A stretch of DNA of 64,000 nt from Streptomyces sp. NBC_01478 (GTDB taxonomy: Bacteria > Actinomycetota > Actinomycetes > Streptomycetales > Streptomycetaceae), in contig NZ_CP109444.1 of the NCBI RefSeq assembly GCF_036227225.1, positions 4,817,501 through 4,881,500 on the forward strand, in the 5' to 3' direction. Made by a program: the position numbers and the translations under genes. Shown one piece after another: positions 56,533-64,000 of this stretch (positions within the stretch are counted from its first letter, which is position 1; each line of letters begins with the position of its first letter). The notes under the pieces were generated by a model. It made no database searches, was not told the DNA's origin, and worked only from the letters and a program-made list of their open reading frames with translations.

Positions 56533-57735
56533 ATGTCGACGCTGCTCTTCGTGCACGGGACGGGTGTTCGCGACGAAGGAGTGCGTGCGGTCGTGTCCCT
56601 CCTGCGGCGGAAGCTGGCACCGCTGCGGCCGGACGTGACGGTCACCGCCTGCTCCTGGGGGACCGAGGAGGGCGCCCGGCTGCACGCCGGCGGCGCCTCG
56701 GTGCCCGGATACGACCGGACCCGCACGACACAGGAGGCGGAGCCGGATCCGGTCGACTCCTGGCTGCTGCTGTACGCCGACCCGCTCCACGAACTGCGCC
56801 TCGCGGGCGTCGGCGAGGGGACGGATCCGCCGCCGGGCGCGGTGCTCCCCGGGGAGCACGCCGAGGAGACCGTACGGGCGCTGCTGGCCCGGGACGACTC
56901 CGGGCGATTACGCGAACGCGCCGACGCGGCGGACCTGACCGGCCGCCTGCCGGACGCCCTGGCCGCGGTCCTGGACACGGACGCGTGGGCCGACGCCCGC
57001 ACCGCGCTCGCCAACGATCCCGGACTGCCGCTGCTGCTGGCCCGCGCGGCCGTGGCGGAGGCCGTCCGCAGCCCGTCGGCGGGGCCCGCCGCCGTCGAGG
57101 GCGACGGCGGGGCACGGGACGGACTCGTCGAGGCGCTCGCCGAGGTGCTGGGCGGTTCGCCGCCGGGCGCCGACCCGCGCTCCGTCGCCTCCCGCGTCGG
57201 CCTCCTGACGGCCCGCACGGCACTGCGCCTGGGGGCTGCCCGAGCCGTCGAACGCCGCCGGGGCGCACTGACCGACGCCGCCCATCCCGCGGCCGGTGAC
57301 GTCCTGCGCTATCTGACCCGCGGCGACGGCATCCGTGCCGTGCTCGCCCGGCGCATCGCGGAGTGCGCCGCCGAGGAGGGCGGGCCGGTGACGGTCCTCG
57401 GCCACAGCCTGGGCGGCATCGCGGCCGTCGATCTGCTGGCCGGCCGGCCCCGGCCGGACGTCGCCCGCCTGATCACGGTGGGCTCGCAGGCCCCCTTCCT
57501 CTACGAGATCGACGCCCTGCCCTCGCTCCCCTTCGGCAGCGGCCTGCCGCCGGGCTTCCCGCCGTGGACCAACGTCTACGACCCCCGCGACCTGCTCGCG
57601 TTCGTCGCCGCGCCGCTCTTCCCCGGCCGGGCCCGGGACGTCCGGCTCGACAGTCGGCAGCCGTTCCCCTACGCGCACAGCGCCTACTGGTCGCGTCCCG
57701 AGCTCTACCCGCTGCTGGCCCGGGAGCTGCCGTGA
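56533..57735 (+). CDS. Alpha/beta hydrolase, TTA-containing, first gene of caspase operon
   Basis: This is a 400-residue hydrolase-fold protein. LLFVHGTGVRDEGV opens the fold, and the nucleophile elbow VLGHSLGGIAAVDLL has Ser292 as the likely catalytic residue. SQAPFLYEIDALPS and the Asp-containing NVYDPRDLLAFVAAP follow. The central region (about 110-250) is Ala/Asp/Arg-rich and variable. Codon 126 is TTA (56908-56910), predicting bldA-dependent translation. The stop overlaps the caspase start in GTGA. Lipase-like effectors occur in bacterial conflict systems, so an effector or deacylase role is plausible but unproven. Confidence 0.72.
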   Translation: MSTLLFVHGTGVRDEGVRAVVSLLRRKLAPLRPDVTVTACSWGTEEGARLHAGGASVPGYDRTRTTQEAEPDPVDSWLLLYADPLHELRLAGVGEGTDPPPGAVLPGEHAEETVRALLARDDSGRLRERADAADLTGRLPDALAAVLDTDAWADARTALANDPGLPLLLARAAVAEAVRSPSAGPAAVEGDGGARDGLVEALAEVLGGSPPGADPRSVASRVGLLTARTALRLGAARAVERRRGALTDAAHPAAGDVLRYLTRGDGIRAVLARRIAECAAEEGGPVTVLGHSLGGIAAVDLLAGRPRPDVARLITVGSQAPFLYEIDALPSLPFGSGLPPGFPPWTNVYDPRDLLAFVAAPLFPGRARDVRLDSRQPFPYAHSAYWSRPELYPLLARELP

Positions 57736-58871
57736 CGACGCGCTCCGCCGCGCCCGCCCGTACCAGCGCCGTCGTCGTCGGCGTCGAGTCCTACGAGGCC
57801 GGGCCCGACTGGGACCTCGACGGGCCGGCCGAGGACGCGCACCGCTTCGCCGAATGGTTTCTGGCCCGCGGTGTACCGCCCGAACGGGTGAGGGTCCTCG
57901 TCTCCCCGCTCGACCGCGGCCCGGCGGCCGGGGAACAGCGGCCGTACCCCGTCCACCACGCCGATCAGGCCACCGTCCACCGTGAGCTGCTGCGCCGGAT
58001 CCCGGGCGAGGAGGGTGATCTGCTCTGGGTGGTGTGGGGCGGTCACGGTGTGGTGGACGCCGAGGGCCACCGCCGGGTCTTCTGCGCAGACGCGACCGCG
58101 GACGACCGGGTCAACGTCGATCTTGACGAAGCCCTGGCATTCTTCCGTTCGAATGCCGTCCCTTCGTTCCGCAGCCAGATCTGGCTGACCGACGCGTGCC
58201 AGAGTCTCCACGATGTCCGGCGTGCCCGCCGCCGGCTCCCCCGGTACACGTTCGCCGCGGGATCGCCCGCCGCCGGACACGACCAGGCCGCGCTGTTCGC
58301 CGTCCGGGCGGGCGAGCGGGCCCTCAATCTCTCGGCGGAACGCACGGGCCTGTTCAGCCGGGAGGTGCTGCGTCTGCTCGCCGCCGCCGATCCCGCCCGC
58401 TGGCCCCCCGACGTGGACGCCCTGCACTCGGGTCTGAGCGGCACCTTCGCCACCCTGCGGGCCCAGGGGCTCGCCCGGCAGACTCCGATCCATCTCTGGT
58501 CGCGCTCCTTCGACGGCGGTGAAGGGCAGTTGCTGGCCTCCGGCGCGGTCGCGGCGTCCGGTCCCGGCGCGCGGCAGGCCCGGCCACCGGTCGCGGTCGT
58601 GGGCGCCCTCGTCGATGCCCTGCTCGCCCTGCCGGAGTTCCGGTCCCGCAGCGCCCGTCAGGAGATGCTCGCGCTGGTCAGAGGGGACGTGGGCCTCTGG
58701 GCTTCGGTCCCCGAGCAGGACACTCCCCGGTTGGCGGCGCTCTCGGTCGTGCGTACCTGTCTGCGCTTCGACGGAGCCCTCGAAGAACTCGTCGAGGCGG
58801 CGCGTCTGTGCGCCGGGGACGCACCGGAGGTCCAGGCCCTCCAGCGTGCCGCGGCGGCCGCCGTCGGCTGA
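57732..58871 (+). CDS. Caspase-like protease with EAD-like C-terminal domain
   Basis: This 379-residue protein has a peptidase C14-like domain (about 12-270). The catalytic dyad is His105 in VVWGGHGVVD and Cys156 in IWLTDACQSLH. SAVVVGVESYEAGPDWDLDGPAEDAHRF is the usual start of bacterial caspases, with the small-residue Asp. The C-terminal 85 residues (VVGALVDALLALPEFRSRSARQEMLALV ... LAALSVVRTCLRFDGALEELVEAARL) resemble effector-associated domains that tether effectors to STAND or peptidase partners. It is translationally coupled to the hydrolase gene and precedes a small peptide gene. It probably cleaves a protein target once activated. Confidence 0.78.
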   Translation: MTTRSAAPARTSAVVVGVESYEAGPDWDLDGPAEDAHRFAEWFLARGVPPERVRVLVSPLDRGPAAGEQRPYPVHHADQATVHRELLRRIPGEEGDLLWVVWGGHGVVDAEGHRRVFCADATADDRVNVDLDEALAFFRSNAVPSFRSQIWLTDACQSLHDVRRARRRLPRYTFAAGSPAAGHDQAALFAVRAGERALNLSAERTGLFSREVLRLLAAADPARWPPDVDALHSGLSGTFATLRAQGLARQTPIHLWSRSFDGGEGQLLASGAVAASGPGARQARPPVAVVGALVDALLALPEFRSRSARQEMLALVRGDVGLWASVPEQDTPRLAALSVVRTCLRFDGALEELVEAARLCAGDAPEVQALQRAAAAAVG

Positions 58872-58941
58872 CGGAAAACCCTGGCCCACGCTTATGACCT
58901 TCCCGGGGTCTTCGCTCCTCTGTGTGACTACGATTTCCGCC

Positions 58942-59127
58942 ATGACGAGACACCACGCAGCCGCACGGGCGGACGTCGGCTCGGAGCAAGGGCTCCCCGA
59001 CCTCAACGACATGGCCTTCGACCAGCTCCCGCCCTTGGACGACCCGGCGGTGGAGCCCGCCGTGCAGGCTCTGTTGGACGACGTGGAACGTCCCGTGAGT
59101 ACCGTTGCGGGCAGCCAGGGAAGCTGA
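58942..59127 (+). CDS. Candidate modified-peptide (RiPP-like) precursor
   Basis: This 61-residue peptide starts with MTRHHAAARADVGSEQGLPDL, followed by NDMAFDQLPPLDDP, AVQALLDDVERPV and the C-terminus STVAGSQGS. The Pro-Asp-Leu...Leu...Leu...Asp-Pro leader pattern resembles FxSxx-COOH precursor peptides, which lie beside HExxH and TPR genes. The end here lacks the Phe and the FxSxx arrangement. It ends seven bases before the HExxH gene start. No ribosome site is visible, and TACGAT at about 58929-58934 could be a -10 for a leaderless message. Confidence 0.6.
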   Translation: MTRHHAAARADVGSEQGLPDLNDMAFDQLPPLDDPAVEPAVQALLDDVERPVSTVAGSQGS

Positions 59128-59134
59128 AACCGAC

Positions 59135-60979
59135 GTGACGAAGCAGCACCGGCTGTCCGAAACCTGCCGCACAGCGCTGGGTTCGGCCGGAGACAGTGCG
59201 TCGGCAGTGGAGGAACTGCTGTCGGCGGAGTACAGCAGGCGCTTGTTGATGGTCCGGGTGCTGCTGGAGCGGGGTGCCGCCGTGGCCGACTCCGCCGGCC
59301 GCCTGCCGATCGGCAAGGCGGCCTGGGAGCTGCTGGCCCGGGCACAGCGGCGGGCGCCCGACCGGGTGCGCGAGGTGTTGCTCGATCCGCAGACCGGGGT
59401 CTGGCTCGCCCGTACCCTGCGCGCCCTGAGGCGGACGGAAGACCGTTCTCCCGCGGAGACGGAAGAGAAGGAGACAACGGACCAGGAACCCTTCTGGACC
59501 GGGTTCGGCGGACTGCACCGCCTCGCCGCCTCGGCCGCGGCGCTGGCCGGTCTGCCCTTCCGCATCGAGGTGCCGGTGGTGGACGGGGAGGTGCTGCTGC
59601 CGTGCCTGGGCCGGGCGGAGCCGACGACCGCCGAGCCGTACGCGACCGTCGAGGTGCGCGGAGGTCCTGGCGGCATCGAGGTGGGGAACGTCCGCGTACC
59701 CGACCTGCCGGAGACGTCCGTGCCCGGGTGGTCGGGGCTGCGGCGGCTGCGCGCCGAGTGCGACGGGCGGGTGCTGGAGGTCGTCCTGGACGATCTGGGG
59801 CAGCCGCCCGCCGGGGGCACGGGCCGTCCGGCGCGCCTCTCCGACGAGGAGTACGCGGGCTGGCGACGGCGGGTCGGGGCGGCCTGGACGACGCTGGTGC
59901 GCGACCACCCCGAGAGTGCCGCCGCCCTCTCGGCCGGGCTGCTCTCTCTGGCGCCGCTCGCGCACCGGGAACGGCTGAGACCGCACAGCGCGACCTCCTC
60001 CGACGCGTTCGGCTGCGTGGTGCTGTCGGCTCCGCACCCGGACGACGAGGACGCGGCCGCCGCCGAGTTGGCGGTGACACTGATCCACGAGTTCCGGCAC
60101 TCCGTGCTGAACGGGCTGATGAGGCTCGCCCCGCTGCACGACGGCACGGACGAGGGGCTTTACCACGCTCCCTGGCGTGACGATCCGCGCCCGCTGGTCG
60201 GGCTCCTGCACGGGGCGTACGCCTTCGCGGGGGTGACGGCGTTCTGGCGGACCCGGCGGCTGCTGGACGAGGGGCCGGCCGGTCAGCTCGCCCACTTCGA
60301 GTTCGCGCTGTGGCGGCGCCAGACCCGGGCCGTCCTGGACACGCTGAGCGGCAGGCCCGGGCTGACGGCGGCGGGCCGGCTGCTGGTCGACGGTCTCACG
60401 GCGGAACTCGGCCCCTGGCCGGCCGAGGCGGTACCGGAGCCCGCGGCCACGCTGGCCGACTTCGCGGCAGTGCACCATCGCACCTCCTGGCGTGCGCACC
60501 ACGTGCGTCCGGCGCCGCCCTCCGTGCTCGCGGCGGCGGCAGCCTCGGTCCTGACCGGCGCCACGGCCACCGGTGCCGCGGACCCGGCCGGCCACACGGT
60601 GCGGACGGATCCCGAGGGCTGCCGGCTGGACGTCCTCGCCCTGCTGGCCCGCCTGCGGCTCACCGATCCGGCGGCCTTCGCGCGCCTCCGGAACGGCTCG
60701 GACGACGTCCCCGGCTCCTCCCCGGCCGATCTCGCCCTGGTCGCGGGCGACCTGGCCCGGGCGGAGACCCTCTACGCCGCCGAACTCGACCGCTCCGACC
60801 GCTCACCCCGCCCCAGCGCCTGGGCCGGCCTCGGTCTGACCCTGCGAGCGAGAGGCACGCGGCCGTCCCCACTGCTTCTCGACCGACCGGAGTTCGTCCG
60901 CGCGCTCTCCGCCGAACTGGACGGCAAGGTCACCTCCCTGACGCTCGCGTCACTGATGGCCGACGCGGGGAGGGACTGA
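59135..60979 (+). CDS. HExxH protein, aKG-type peptide beta-hydroxylase family
   Basis: This is a 614-residue protein. The metal motif is TLIHEFRHSVLNGL (His318, Glu319, His322), followed about 30 residues later by DDPRPLVGLLHGAYAFAG with the third conserved His. This pair of motifs defines the FxSxx-linked HExxH family. The family was first taken for peptidases and later named aKG-HExxH-type peptide beta-hydroxylases (from memory). The N-terminal 110 residues are helical (RRLLMVRVLLERG). The GTG at 59135 is the best start. It probably modifies the adjacent peptide; no radical SAM gene is in view. It is convergent with the NB-ARC gene. Confidence 0.78.
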   Translation: MTKQHRLSETCRTALGSAGDSASAVEELLSAEYSRRLLMVRVLLERGAAVADSAGRLPIGKAAWELLARAQRRAPDRVREVLLDPQTGVWLARTLRALRRTEDRSPAETEEKETTDQEPFWTGFGGLHRLAASAAALAGLPFRIEVPVVDGEVLLPCLGRAEPTTAEPYATVEVRGGPGGIEVGNVRVPDLPETSVPGWSGLRRLRAECDGRVLEVVLDDLGQPPAGGTGRPARLSDEEYAGWRRRVGAAWTTLVRDHPESAAALSAGLLSLAPLAHRERLRPHSATSSDAFGCVVLSAPHPDDEDAAAAELAVTLIHEFRHSVLNGLMRLAPLHDGTDEGLYHAPWRDDPRPLVGLLHGAYAFAGVTAFWRTRRLLDEGPAGQLAHFEFALWRRQTRAVLDTLSGRPGLTAAGRLLVDGLTAELGPWPAEAVPEPAATLADFAAVHHRTSWRAHHVRPAPPSVLAAAAASVLTGATATGAADPAGHTVRTDPEGCRLDVLALLARLRLTDPAAFARLRNGSDDVPGSSPADLALVAGDLARAETLYAAELDRSDRSPRPSAWAGLGLTLRARGTRPSPLLLDRPEFVRALSAELDGKVTSLTLASLMADAGRD

Positions 60980-60997
60980 CCGGGGACGGGGACAGCG

Positions 60998-61137
60998 TCC
61001 GGCCGCGGCGGCTCGCCGGGAACCCGCGTTCACAAGGGACTGACCGGAAACGGAGACAGCAAGACCACAACCGCCGCGGCCGGACGGATGCCGAGCAACC
61101 CTTCCGGCCGCGGCGGCTCGCCGGGAACCCGCGTTCA
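60998..61137. repeat. 35-base direct repeats in convergent gap
   Basis: TCCGGCCGCGGCGGCTCGCC and the following 15 bases occur at 60998-61032 and again at 61103-61137. A partial inverted copy (CCGCCGCGGCCGGA) lies between. The same 305-base gap contains a decayed copy of the end of the NB-ARC gene at about 61160-61275. Confidence 0.75.
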
Positions 61138-61159
61138 TAGCGGATGCCGAACATCCCAC

Positions 61160-61275
61160 CCGGCCACGGCAGTTGGCCGAACGCGGCCCGTGTTCACCAG
61201 GGTGGCCCCCCAGCCGCGTGGCGGTCCCGGCGTGCAGGGTCTCCGCCTCGCGCACCGCGCCGGGCAGGCGCCAAG
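61160..61275 (-). pseudogene. Decayed duplicate of NB-ARC gene 3' end
   Basis: In one minus-strand frame GAVREAETLHAGTATRLG is read, matching GAVREAEALHAETAARLA near the C-terminus of the gene at 61285. The DNA match covers CAGGGTGGC...GTGCAGGG(T/C)CTC(C/G)GCCTCGCGCAC. It is frameshifted and without a start, so it is a remnant. Confidence 0.7.
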
Positions 61276-61284
61276 GCCACACGT

Positions 61285-64000
61285 TCACAGCGGCATCGGG
61301 TCGATGTCGCAGTTCGCGCGGCGGTCCCAGTCCTGGGCCTGCTGTGCCGCGGGGTGCTCCGGTCCCAGGGTGGCTGCCAGCCGGGCGGCGGTCTCGGCGT
61401 GCAGGGCCTCGGCCTCGCGCACGGCGCCGGTCGCCCGCAGGTCGAGCGCCAGGTTGGCCGCGCAGACGAGCGCCGAGGGGTGGTCCGCGTCGAACACGTC
61501 GACCGTACGGGCCAGGGTCTCGGTGTCCAGTTCGCGGGCGGCCTCCATGTCGCCCAGCGCGTAGCGGTCGCTCGCCAGATTGGCCGCGCACACCAGGGTC
61601 AGCGGATGGAGGTCGCCGAGCCGTGCGCTCAGCAGGCGCAGCGCCTCCTCGTCGATCTCGCGGGCCTTCGCCGGTTCGCTGTTGAGCCGCAGGGTCACCG
61701 CCAGGTTCACCCAGGAGGCGACCGTGTGCGGATGCGTCGGACCGAAGGTGACCGCGTACTGGTCGTGGATCCGGCTGCCCAGTTCGTAGGCCTGGTCGAG
61801 GTCGCCGGAGTGACGCATGTTCACCGTCACCTCCAGGTTCGCGGCGAGCGACTCGGGGTCGTGCTCGCCGTAGCGCTCGATCAGCCGGCCCAGCGCGCCG
61901 TCCGCCGCCCGCCGGGCCTGGTCGTGGTGGCCGGCCTTGCGGCGGGCGACCGCGAGGTGGCGCAGGCAGGACATGGTGAGCGGGTTGCCGTTGCCGAGCG
62001 CGATACGGCACTGGGAGGTGATCTCCTCCTGGTAGGTGAGCGCCTGGTGGTAGTCGCCGAGTTCCCTCATGTCCACGATCAGCCCGAGCCAGGTGACCAG
62101 GCTCGCCGCGTGGTCGAGGCCGAACATGTGGACCTTGCGGTTCCAGGTGTCCTCGTCGAGCTGCCGGGCCCGGCCGAACAGACCGGCCAGCCTGAGGCTC
62201 ACGCCCACGTTGTGCGCCGCCCGCAGCGTGTCCGGATCGTCCTCGCCGTTGAGCCGCAGCAGCCGCTCGTGGACGGACTCCGAGAGTTCCAGGGCGGCGC
62301 CGAACTCGCCCTCCACCCGCCGGTCGATGGCCACGTTGCCCAGGGCGTCGAGCGTCTCCGGATGGTCCTCGCCGAGCGTGGCCCGGTACGACTCCAGCAC
62401 CGAGGCGTTGAGACGTGCGGCGTCCTGGTAGCGGCCCCGGCTGAAGTGCAGCACGCCCAGCCACTTCGCCAGGCCGAGTGTCTGCTCGTCGGAGCCGAAC
62501 GCGTTCTCCCAGATCTCGAACGCCTCGTCGGCCAGCTCGCTGCCGGTGTCGTAATCCCCCCACCGGCAGAGGTACTTGACCTCGTTGATGATCAGCGCCC
62601 GTACCCACCGGTCCTCGGAGTGCACCGCGTCGGAGGCCATCACGTGCGGGGTCAACTCACCGTACCGGTCCCAGTGGTTGGCGTTCTCCGGGTCGAACGG
62701 GTCGTTGGCGACGAGGAGTTGATGCGCGCCGCTGCGCATCCGGTCCTGTTCCTCCTCGGTCATCCGGGCCTGCAACGCCATCTGGACCAGTCGGTGCAAC
62801 TGGATGGCGTTGGCCCGGTGGTCCATCCGCGCCAGGGAGAAGCGGCCGATCTCCCGGATGGTCTGCGCCTGCCGGATCGGGTCGCGCAGCGCCACGTCCA
62901 GTTCGGGCGCGATGGAGCGGTCCCGCAGACTGTTGAAGAGGTTGCGCGGGATGGGCTCGGGAGCGCAGAACGAACACACCTGGAGCAGTTGGAGCGCCGC
63001 CGGGTTCTTCGCCTCCAGTTGGTCCAGGGAGACGTTCCAGGCGGCGATCACCGGCGACTCGTAGTCCGGTGACTCCGTCTCGTCGAGCAGCTCCAGCCGC
63101 TTCTCCTCGAACAGCCGGAGGTACTCACCGGCCGACATGCCGGTCTCGGCCAGCCAGGCGGCCGCCTGCTCGACCGCCAGCGGCAGGTCGCCCAGGGCCT
63201 CCGCGAGCTGGTCGGCCTCGTCGTCGGCGAGCTCCCGGGTGCGGCGGCGCAGCAACTGGGTGCTCTCCGCACGGGCGAACACATCGACCTCCAGCGGCCG
63301 GGCCACGTTCGACCACTGCGGATTGCGCGAGGTGACCAGGATGTTGCCGGTGCCGCCGGCCGGGAAGTAGCCGCGGACGTTCTCCGGGCTCTCGGCGTTG
63401 TCGAAGACCAGCAGCCAGTCCTCGTACGGCTCGCCCCTGCGCAGTGCCTCCAGCACCGCGGGCACCGCCGTGCCCGCCTCGCCACTGGTCTTCAGGCCCA
63501 GGCGCAGGGCGAGTTCGGCCAGCGAGCGGACGATCTGGCTGGTGCGCTCGGCGGGGATCCACCAGACGACGTCGTAGTCACTGAGCCTGCGGTACAGGTA
63601 CTCGATGACGAGGGCCGACTTCCCGACACCGCCCATACCGTGCAGGGCGTTGGGCAGCACGGCCGTGGCACGCTCGCGCTGGAGTCTGCGGTGCAGGTTG
63701 TCCAACAGGGCCTCACGGCCGATGAAGTTCGCGTTCTGCGGCGGTACGTTGCCCCATACCGCCGGGGTGCTCCCGGACCGCGTACCGCTCTGCGGCCGGC
63801 TGGCCTCGACCATCTCCAGGCCCCTTTCCTGAGTGACCGCGTGTGTCGGTGACGGTGGTTCCTTGTACGACGACAGGTGTTCGGCGGACTGCCGGGCCCG
63901 CGCCCGACCCAGGCGGCGGACGACCATGTGGTCGGCCAGCGCCTGGCCCATCCGGCGCGCGGGTTCCAGACCCGGGCCGGACAGCGCGCCCAGGACGGCC
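61285..64000 (-). CDS. NB-ARC/TPR (STAND) protein, FxsT-like (5' end outside window)
   Basis: At least 888 residues are visible. The frame stays open to the window edge with coding-like sequence (AVLGALSGPGLEPARRMGQ), so the N-terminal part is probably missing. The NTPase core starts after FIGREALLDNLHRRL. The P-loop is GMGGVGKSALVIEYLYR, Walker B is DWLLVFDNAES, and ILVTSRNPQW is the sensor R-S/T region, with LGDLPLAVEQAAAWL as the GLPLA motif. From about residue 430 to the end are TPR repeats of the kinesin-light-chain type (FSRGRYQDAARLNASVLESYRATLGEDHPETLDALGN). Such proteins accompany FxSxx-COOH systems. It is convergent with the HExxH gene. Confidence 0.8.
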   Translation of the reverse strand, partial: AVLGALSGPGLEPARRMGQALADHMVVRRLGRARARQSAEHLSSYKEPPSPTHAVTQERGLEMVEASRPQSGTRSGSTPAVWGNVPPQNANFIGREALLDNLHRRLQRERATAVLPNALHGMGGVGKSALVIEYLYRRLSDYDVVWWIPAERTSQIVRSLAELALRLGLKTSGEAGTAVPAVLEALRRGEPYEDWLLVFDNAESPENVRGYFPAGGTGNILVTSRNPQWSNVARPLEVDVFARAESTQLLRRRTRELADDEADQLAEALGDLPLAVEQAAAWLAETGMSAGEYLRLFEEKRLELLDETESPDYESPVIAAWNVSLDQLEAKNPAALQLLQVCSFCAPEPIPRNLFNSLRDRSIAPELDVALRDPIRQAQTIREIGRFSLARMDHRANAIQLHRLVQMALQARMTEEEQDRMRSGAHQLLVANDPFDPENANHWDRYGELTPHVMASDAVHSEDRWVRALIINEVKYLCRWGDYDTGSELADEAFEIWENAFGSDEQTLGLAKWLGVLHFSRGRYQDAARLNASVLESYRATLGEDHPETLDALGNVAIDRRVEGEFGAALELSESVHERLLRLNGEDDPDTLRAAHNVGVSLRLAGLFGRARQLDEDTWNRKVHMFGLDHAASLVTWLGLIVDMRELGDYHQALTYQEEITSQCRIALGNGNPLTMSCLRHLAVARRKAGHHDQARRAADGALGRLIERYGEHDPESLAANLEVTVNMRHSGDLDQAYELGSRIHDQYAVTFGPTHPHTVASWVNLAVTLRLNSEPAKAREIDEEALRLLSARLGDLHPLTLVCAANLASDRYALGDMEAARELDTETLARTVDVFDADHPSALVCAANLALDLRATGAVREAEALHAETAARLAATLGPEHPAAQQAQDWDRRANCDIDPMPL

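Follow-up and report, generated by a model that had tools for sequence, protein, structure and literature searches.

Gene content and core of the locus

The window analysed here, a 64,000-nucleotide stretch of the Streptomyces sp. NBC_01478 genome (12.1 Mb, single contig; positions 4817501-4881500), ends in genes for an alpha/beta-hydrolase, a caspase-like peptidase, a small precursor peptide and an HExxH protein, which converge on an NB-ARC/TPR reading frame still open at the window end (Table 1). A first-pass annotation of the window had already recognised the hydrolase with Ser292, the caspase with His105/Cys156 and an effector-associated-like tail, the 61-residue peptide and the HExxH protein; these identifications hold, as does its view of the locus as conflict-type, with caspase and STAND components and a peptide system resembling FxSxx, the genes being part of one larger system. 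Beyond the window edge, in a 20-kb stretch (L012, 4873001-4893000), the open frame is completed to a 1,269-residue vWA-NB-ARC-TPR protein with a SAV_2336-type vWA component. The convergent NB-ARC/TPR product of the first-pass annotation is a window-edge fragment, and a separate NB-ARC gene was rejected. NF040586 (FxSxx_TPR) matched the frame with 890 bits and the whole protein with 888 bits (cut-off 300); the vWA component, joined to NB-ARC and TPR, rests on NF041121 (206.2 bits on the whole protein, cut-off 200), no Pfam vWA match being listed for the protein.

Upstream of this gene lie genes for a MoxR-type AAA protein and a vWA-MoxR-associated protein (VMAP), so that VMAP, MoxR and vWA follow one another on one strand, the order described for VMAP ternary systems (Kaur, Burroughs, Iyer, Aravind 2020, PMC7159879). 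By eye, the N-terminal MoxR motifs WxhapG and PsWRxa are matched by WWMYRG and PPWRSF, the former requiring a TTG start at L012:10607 or an earlier start. The same effector-associated domain (EAD), EAD2, is carried by VMAP and by the neighbouring caspase, and these two proteins, encoded ~8 kb apart, were the only ones in the genome with an EAD2 match when 150 of 204 candidates were scored; VMAP-C matches above cut-off numbered four. From this gene content, order and domain composition, the locus, with seven genes over ~11 kb, is almost certainly a VMAP ternary conflict system of the actinobacterial type. The five window genes are its accessory half, and the supposed hybrid consists of two exchangeable modules of one larger system: the hydrolase-caspase pair and the peptide-HExxH set are joined by the VMAP-MoxR-vWA core, which lies outside the window.

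Table 1. Genes of the locus (window coordinates unless prefixed L012)
Feature	Position	Strand	Description
Alpha/beta-hydrolase	56533..57735	+	400 aa; lipase-type core with helical insertion; GHSLGG with Ser292
Caspase-like peptidase, C-terminal EAD2	57732..58871	+	379 aa; His105/Cys156
Precursor peptide	58942..59127	+	61 aa; C-terminus RPVSTVAGSQGS
Stand-alone HExxH protein	59135..60979	+	614 aa; alpha-ketoglutarate peptide hydroxylase family; C-terminal helices resembling TPRs
vWA-NB-ARC-TPR gene, C-terminal 2,716 of 3,810 nt	61285..64000	-	extends beyond the window end as far as L012:9594 (genome 4882594)
MoxR-type AAA gene	L012:9591-10607	-	AAA_5 33.5 bits, cut-off 22; upstream of vWA-NB-ARC-TPR gene
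VMAP gene	L012:10621-12144	-	EAD2, VMAP-M0, VMAP-C (PF20028 136.2 bits, cut-off 27)

The first four genes share one orientation, as annotated at first pass; the gaps are 70 bases (caspase to peptide) and 7 bases (peptide to HExxH), and the reported 4-base gap is a 4-base overlap of the hydrolase and caspase genes. A further 305 bases separate the HExxH gene from the convergent NB-ARC frame. The region around this gap (window 60973-61430) contains direct repeats of 67 nt (two copies) and 39 nt (three copies), as well as 54 nt that are 89% identical to sequence close to the 3' end of the NB-ARC-TPR gene, perhaps from a partial duplication that has decayed. PADLOC, applied to the five proteins, returned no named system, its single match being to a caspase model (36.6 bits, E 7.4e-10).

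Hydrolase, caspase and HExxH protein

Residues Ser292, Asp350, Asp353 and His382 of the hydrolase were invariant among 46 aligned relatives; 1,396 relatives were found at E <= 1e-10 among 7,993 candidates scored, the nearest named ones being from Streptomyces. The C-terminal EAD2 of the caspase scored 64.8 bits (8.6e-18; cut-off 23.8), and in an alignment of 38 caspases Cys156 was present in 34 of the 34 sequences with a letter at that position and His105 in 34 of 35. The caspase of locus L064 carries Pro at His105 and is gapped at Cys156. Membership of the EACC1-type caspase class (NF047832) was rejected, the score reaching 35.4 bits against a cut-off of 140.

The HExxH protein, with its motif HEFRH at residues 318-322, is the only protein of the genome to match TIGR04267 (aKG-HExxH-type peptide beta-hydroxylase; 153.3 bits, cut-off 40). 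It resembles ChlBH and SjiH in sequence and fold, and a conserved W[RK]x[DE]xR following HExxH is common to the window protein, ChlH/ChlBH and SjiH. ChlBH is titled an alpha-ketoglutarate dependent oxygenase, and very probably the window protein, too, is an Fe/alpha-ketoglutarate oxygenase rather than a plain metallopeptidase. Two points weigh against this prediction: SjiH, known from its PDB title only, is not confirmed as an alpha-ketoglutarate oxygenase, and no target residue is evident in the peptide core. Kaur et al. proposed instead that the protein, as a zinc metallopeptidase, cleaves the peptide and thereby frees a C-terminal toxin or signal. That published reading (PMC7159879) is consistent with the HExxH motif itself and with the family member PflC, which is proteolytic without its leader peptide (PMC12636437, PMC12707348), yet the shared sequence, fold and W[RK]x[DE]xR features above argue against it and make it rather improbable.

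Recurrence and exchange of modules

The same-genus search with the HExxH protein covered 246 genomes, 159 of which had a match at E <= 1e-10. Three sets of loci were compared. Set A, the window locus and 60 neighbourhoods (61 loci), covers 64 of the 72 best-listed matches, down to E 4.3e-39; the eight omitted matches lie mostly near contig ends (G149, G001, G141, G075, G119, G017, G210 and G138), and in G075 a hydrolase match lies beside the HExxH match. Set B comprises 20 of the 27 hydrolase matches without HExxH nearby among the matches listed (7 left out), and set C 40 neighbourhoods picked among the top matches when 394 genomes were searched across the class, two from the same genus (L140, L162) and 38 from other genera. 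Because the locus profiles were themselves built from these loci (E <= 1e-4), component counts lean on them, and presences are lower bounds because the sequence in several stretches runs out at a contig end or ~10 kb from the HExxH gene.

Across set A, HExxH (61 of 61) was accompanied by NB-ARC-TPR in 59 loci, vWA in 53, VMAP in 51, MoxR in 40 and EAD2 in 51 or 49, according to which of two profiles was used. Caspase was detected in 18 loci, hydrolase in 16, trypsin in 12, PNP in 6, TIR in 4 and radical SAM in 4. To identify the EAD2 partner where caspase was lacking, Pfam searches were run on ten of 31 EAD2 frames belonging to neither VMAP nor caspase; they gave trypsin (5), TIR (2), nucleoside phosphorylase (2) and, for the tenth, a weak TCAD9 match below cut-off (27.3 vs 40 bits). 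Hydrolase, caspase, HExxH, NB-ARC-TPR and VMAP occurred together in 14 of the 61 loci, and two more (L065, L093), whose stretches end ~10 kb from the HExxH gene, had all of these but VMAP; both convergent layouts, as in the window, and collinear ones occur. The hydrolase itself gave 49 matches in 45 of the 246 same-genus genomes, 22 of them with an HExxH match within ~8 kb among the matches listed (coordinates compared by hand). Set B loci, chosen for lack of such a nearby match, all carried hydrolase, caspase and VMAP (20 each), with MoxR in 19, vWA in 18, NB-ARC-TPR in 3 (all partial) and HExxH in none. Within set C, HExxH stood with NB-ARC-TPR in 39 loci, VMAP was found in 19 and radical SAM in 23. 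A contig scan using the HExxH protein as query confirmed a single locus, L015 (Acrocarpospora, radical-SAM type).

For the distances and tree we omitted seven loci that carry a second HExxH gene or in which no core was detected (L053, L054, L062, L076, L082, L086, L095), together with rows shorter than half the median length. On the resulting 53-row HExxH tree, module labels were not of single origin, the changes needed numbering 5 for caspase, 3 for TIR, 2 for PNP, 1 for trypsin and 8 for 'other'. Among unusual arrangements, in L053, L054 and L062 a single ternary core adjoins two HExxH genes that diverge back to back and have separate peptides; L133 and L135 show signs of two tandem ternary cores with a separate NB-ARC-TPR part for each; and L014, elsewhere in the genome of the window (8948001-8968000), has two FxSxx_TPR-type TIR-NB-ARC-TPR genes and radical-SAM-like frames, with no HExxH match.

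A small-open reading frame (ORF) profile, seeded by motif and position, located a related small ORF in 85 of 101 HExxH-centred loci, no more than 1.8 kb upstream of the HExxH match. An F.S motif in the last 25 residues marked 16 of 19 peptides from radical-SAM loci versus 2 of 69 from others. The window peptide ends in VSTVAGSQGS, which is of neither RxD, acidic nor FxSxx type; the fxs class proper was rejected for lack of an FxSxx C-terminus and of any radical-SAM/SPASM match in L012, where a local profile found no radical-SAM match over the 20 kb. Its class (L012, L046-L050) coincides with an HExxH clade of six (support 100/99) in which some members have caspase modules and others TIR modules, so that the peptide is retained when the caspase is exchanged. 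A database search with the six class members yielded 38 proteins at E <= 0.001 among 2,309 candidates. The C-terminal motif [RK]PxSTx[AG]GSx[GP][SG] was present in 36 of these, a count biased upward because the search profile was built from the same class. Over 36 of the 38 matches (>=50 residues, P0156 excluded) the last 12 residues were 70-74% pairwise identical, compared with 33-52% in the preceding 30, the pattern expected of a core peptide behind a leader. Pfam gave no match for the peptides; PF27839 is pre-assigned to many of the 38 matches, and two bear the UniRef name 'FXSXX-COOH protein'.

Several observations weigh against the ternary-system reading. Both the conflict role and the peptidase cascade are themselves predictions in PMC7159879. 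According to that paper, caspases are always paired with a neighbouring alpha/beta-hydrolase gene, peptidases being sometimes stand-alone genes; contrary to this rule, the hydrolase was not seen in 2 of 18 caspase loci (L046, L064). The paper also describes the AP-ATPase as fused to vWA in systems whose peptide is RxD-type or acidic, a rule that the window locus, with its fused protein, breaks. Neither caspase nor hydrolase was found beside HExxH in any of the 40 class-wide loci. Further, where the pair is present its distances track HExxH, with Spearman rho 0.77 for caspase (16 loci) and 0.90 for hydrolase (15 loci), values that rest on few clades.

This tracking, together with the close spacing, the single orientation and the 16 of the 61 loci in which one stretch holds hydrolase, caspase, HExxH and NB-ARC-TPR, would favour a self-contained five-gene hybrid of a ribosomally synthesised, post-translationally modified peptide (RiPP) system and a caspase, with the modified peptide as ligand, inhibitor or substrate of caspase and hydrolase. 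We consider it unlikely: caspase was not detected in 43 of the 61 HExxH-centred loci, VMAP was still present in 20 of 20 hydrolase-caspase pairs without HExxH, and the same peptide class occurs with TIR replacing the caspase. A self-contained system was thus rejected in favour of exchangeable modules around a VMAP-MoxR-vWA core, and the first-pass idea of the peptide as a link between STAND sensor and caspase/hydrolase is not supported. That the pair and the peptide set are merely chance neighbours is hardly credible, for although each set occurs without the other, the two EAD2 matches found genome-wide lie on the caspase and on VMAP, and pair, HExxH and core stay together in both layouts. The separate occurrence that the first-pass annotation took as a sign of mere neighbours was seen in part, in the same-genus loci with no detected caspase and in the pair loci picked for lacking a listed HExxH.

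Predicted action and relation to known systems

Including its action, the ternary-system explanation as a whole appears probable, and the detailed steps, all of them inferred, are tentative. VMAP would sense an intracellular invader and the MoxR ATPase would remodel the complex, whereupon the caspase may dock through an EAD2-EAD2 contact with VMAP, become active and cleave the vWA-NB-ARC-TPR protein or other targets. Assembly of the NB-ARC-TPR part might follow and, together with the lipase-type hydrolase, arrest growth of the infected compartment or kill it. The HExxH protein would hydroxylate, or oxidatively trim, the conserved C-terminal peptide core. That the peptide class travels with the STAND protein while EAD2-linked effectors swap marks the STAND protein as the candidate partner of the peptide. 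The part concerned might be NB-ARC-TPR, its activation threshold tuned by the peptide, and not the caspase. It is conceivable, though doubtful, that the hydroxylated core (RPxSTIAGSxGS class) sets this threshold, such that the STAND protein in effect guards the oxygenase product. If so, the ternary system would fire when infection abolishes peptide hydroxylation or drives it to excess, by way of iron, oxygen, alpha-ketoglutarate or a phage inhibitor, and the trigger would be the same whichever EAD2 effector (caspase, TIR, trypsin or phosphorylase) is plugged in.

The first-pass annotation regarded this combination of genes as undescribed. Every component kind of the locus is already part of the description in PMC7159879, so that a known predicted system replaces a seemingly new hybrid, an impression created by the window edge. 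In that account the vWA component bears effectors that vary at its C-terminus, as the window locus does with NB-ARC and TPR; EADs serve as adaptors, and EAD2 is found with signalling peptidases and nucleotide-using enzymes. About 20% of VMAP systems from actinobacteria possess a zincin-like protein together with a small diverging peptide and a TPR-bearing AP-ATPase. Features in common with the locus are the core genes in the same order, an EAD2 both on VMAP and on the peptidase next to it, the hydrolase partner, the peptide with an HExxH gene, and the fusion of AP-ATPase-TPR to vWA. In its Figure 4C legend the paper mentions 'mutual exclusivity' of peptide and peptidase accessories, in ambiguous wording; 14 loci here carry both. 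A 2024 paper (PMC10907252) restates the predicted cascade and proposes another, its sensor proposal awaiting experiment; in a literature search with most subscription papers outside its coverage, we noticed no paper reporting an experiment on this type of locus.

With fxs RiPP systems the locus shares an FxSxx_TPR-type NB-ARC/TPR part, an HExxH domain and a related precursor leader; those systems have an FxSxx end and a radical-SAM enzyme, whereas here the FxSxx end is missing and HExxH is stand-alone. ChlH/ChlBH, BpmH and PflC/PosC (PMC12636437, PMC12707348), like SjiH, belong to the same TIGR04267 family as the window protein. Unlike the known alpha-ketoglutarate HExxH hydroxylases, it has extra C-terminal TPR-like helices and sits in a conflict system, and the peptide core is unlike the substrate cores described for them. 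What is new is modest, namely a peptide class whose C-terminal core is strongly conserved and a predicted oxygenase role for the HExxH enzyme in such a setting. These least familiar parts, the C-terminal motif and a likely oxygen-using modifying enzyme, offer a testable correction to the published VMAP scheme, with an oxygenase in place of a metallopeptidase.

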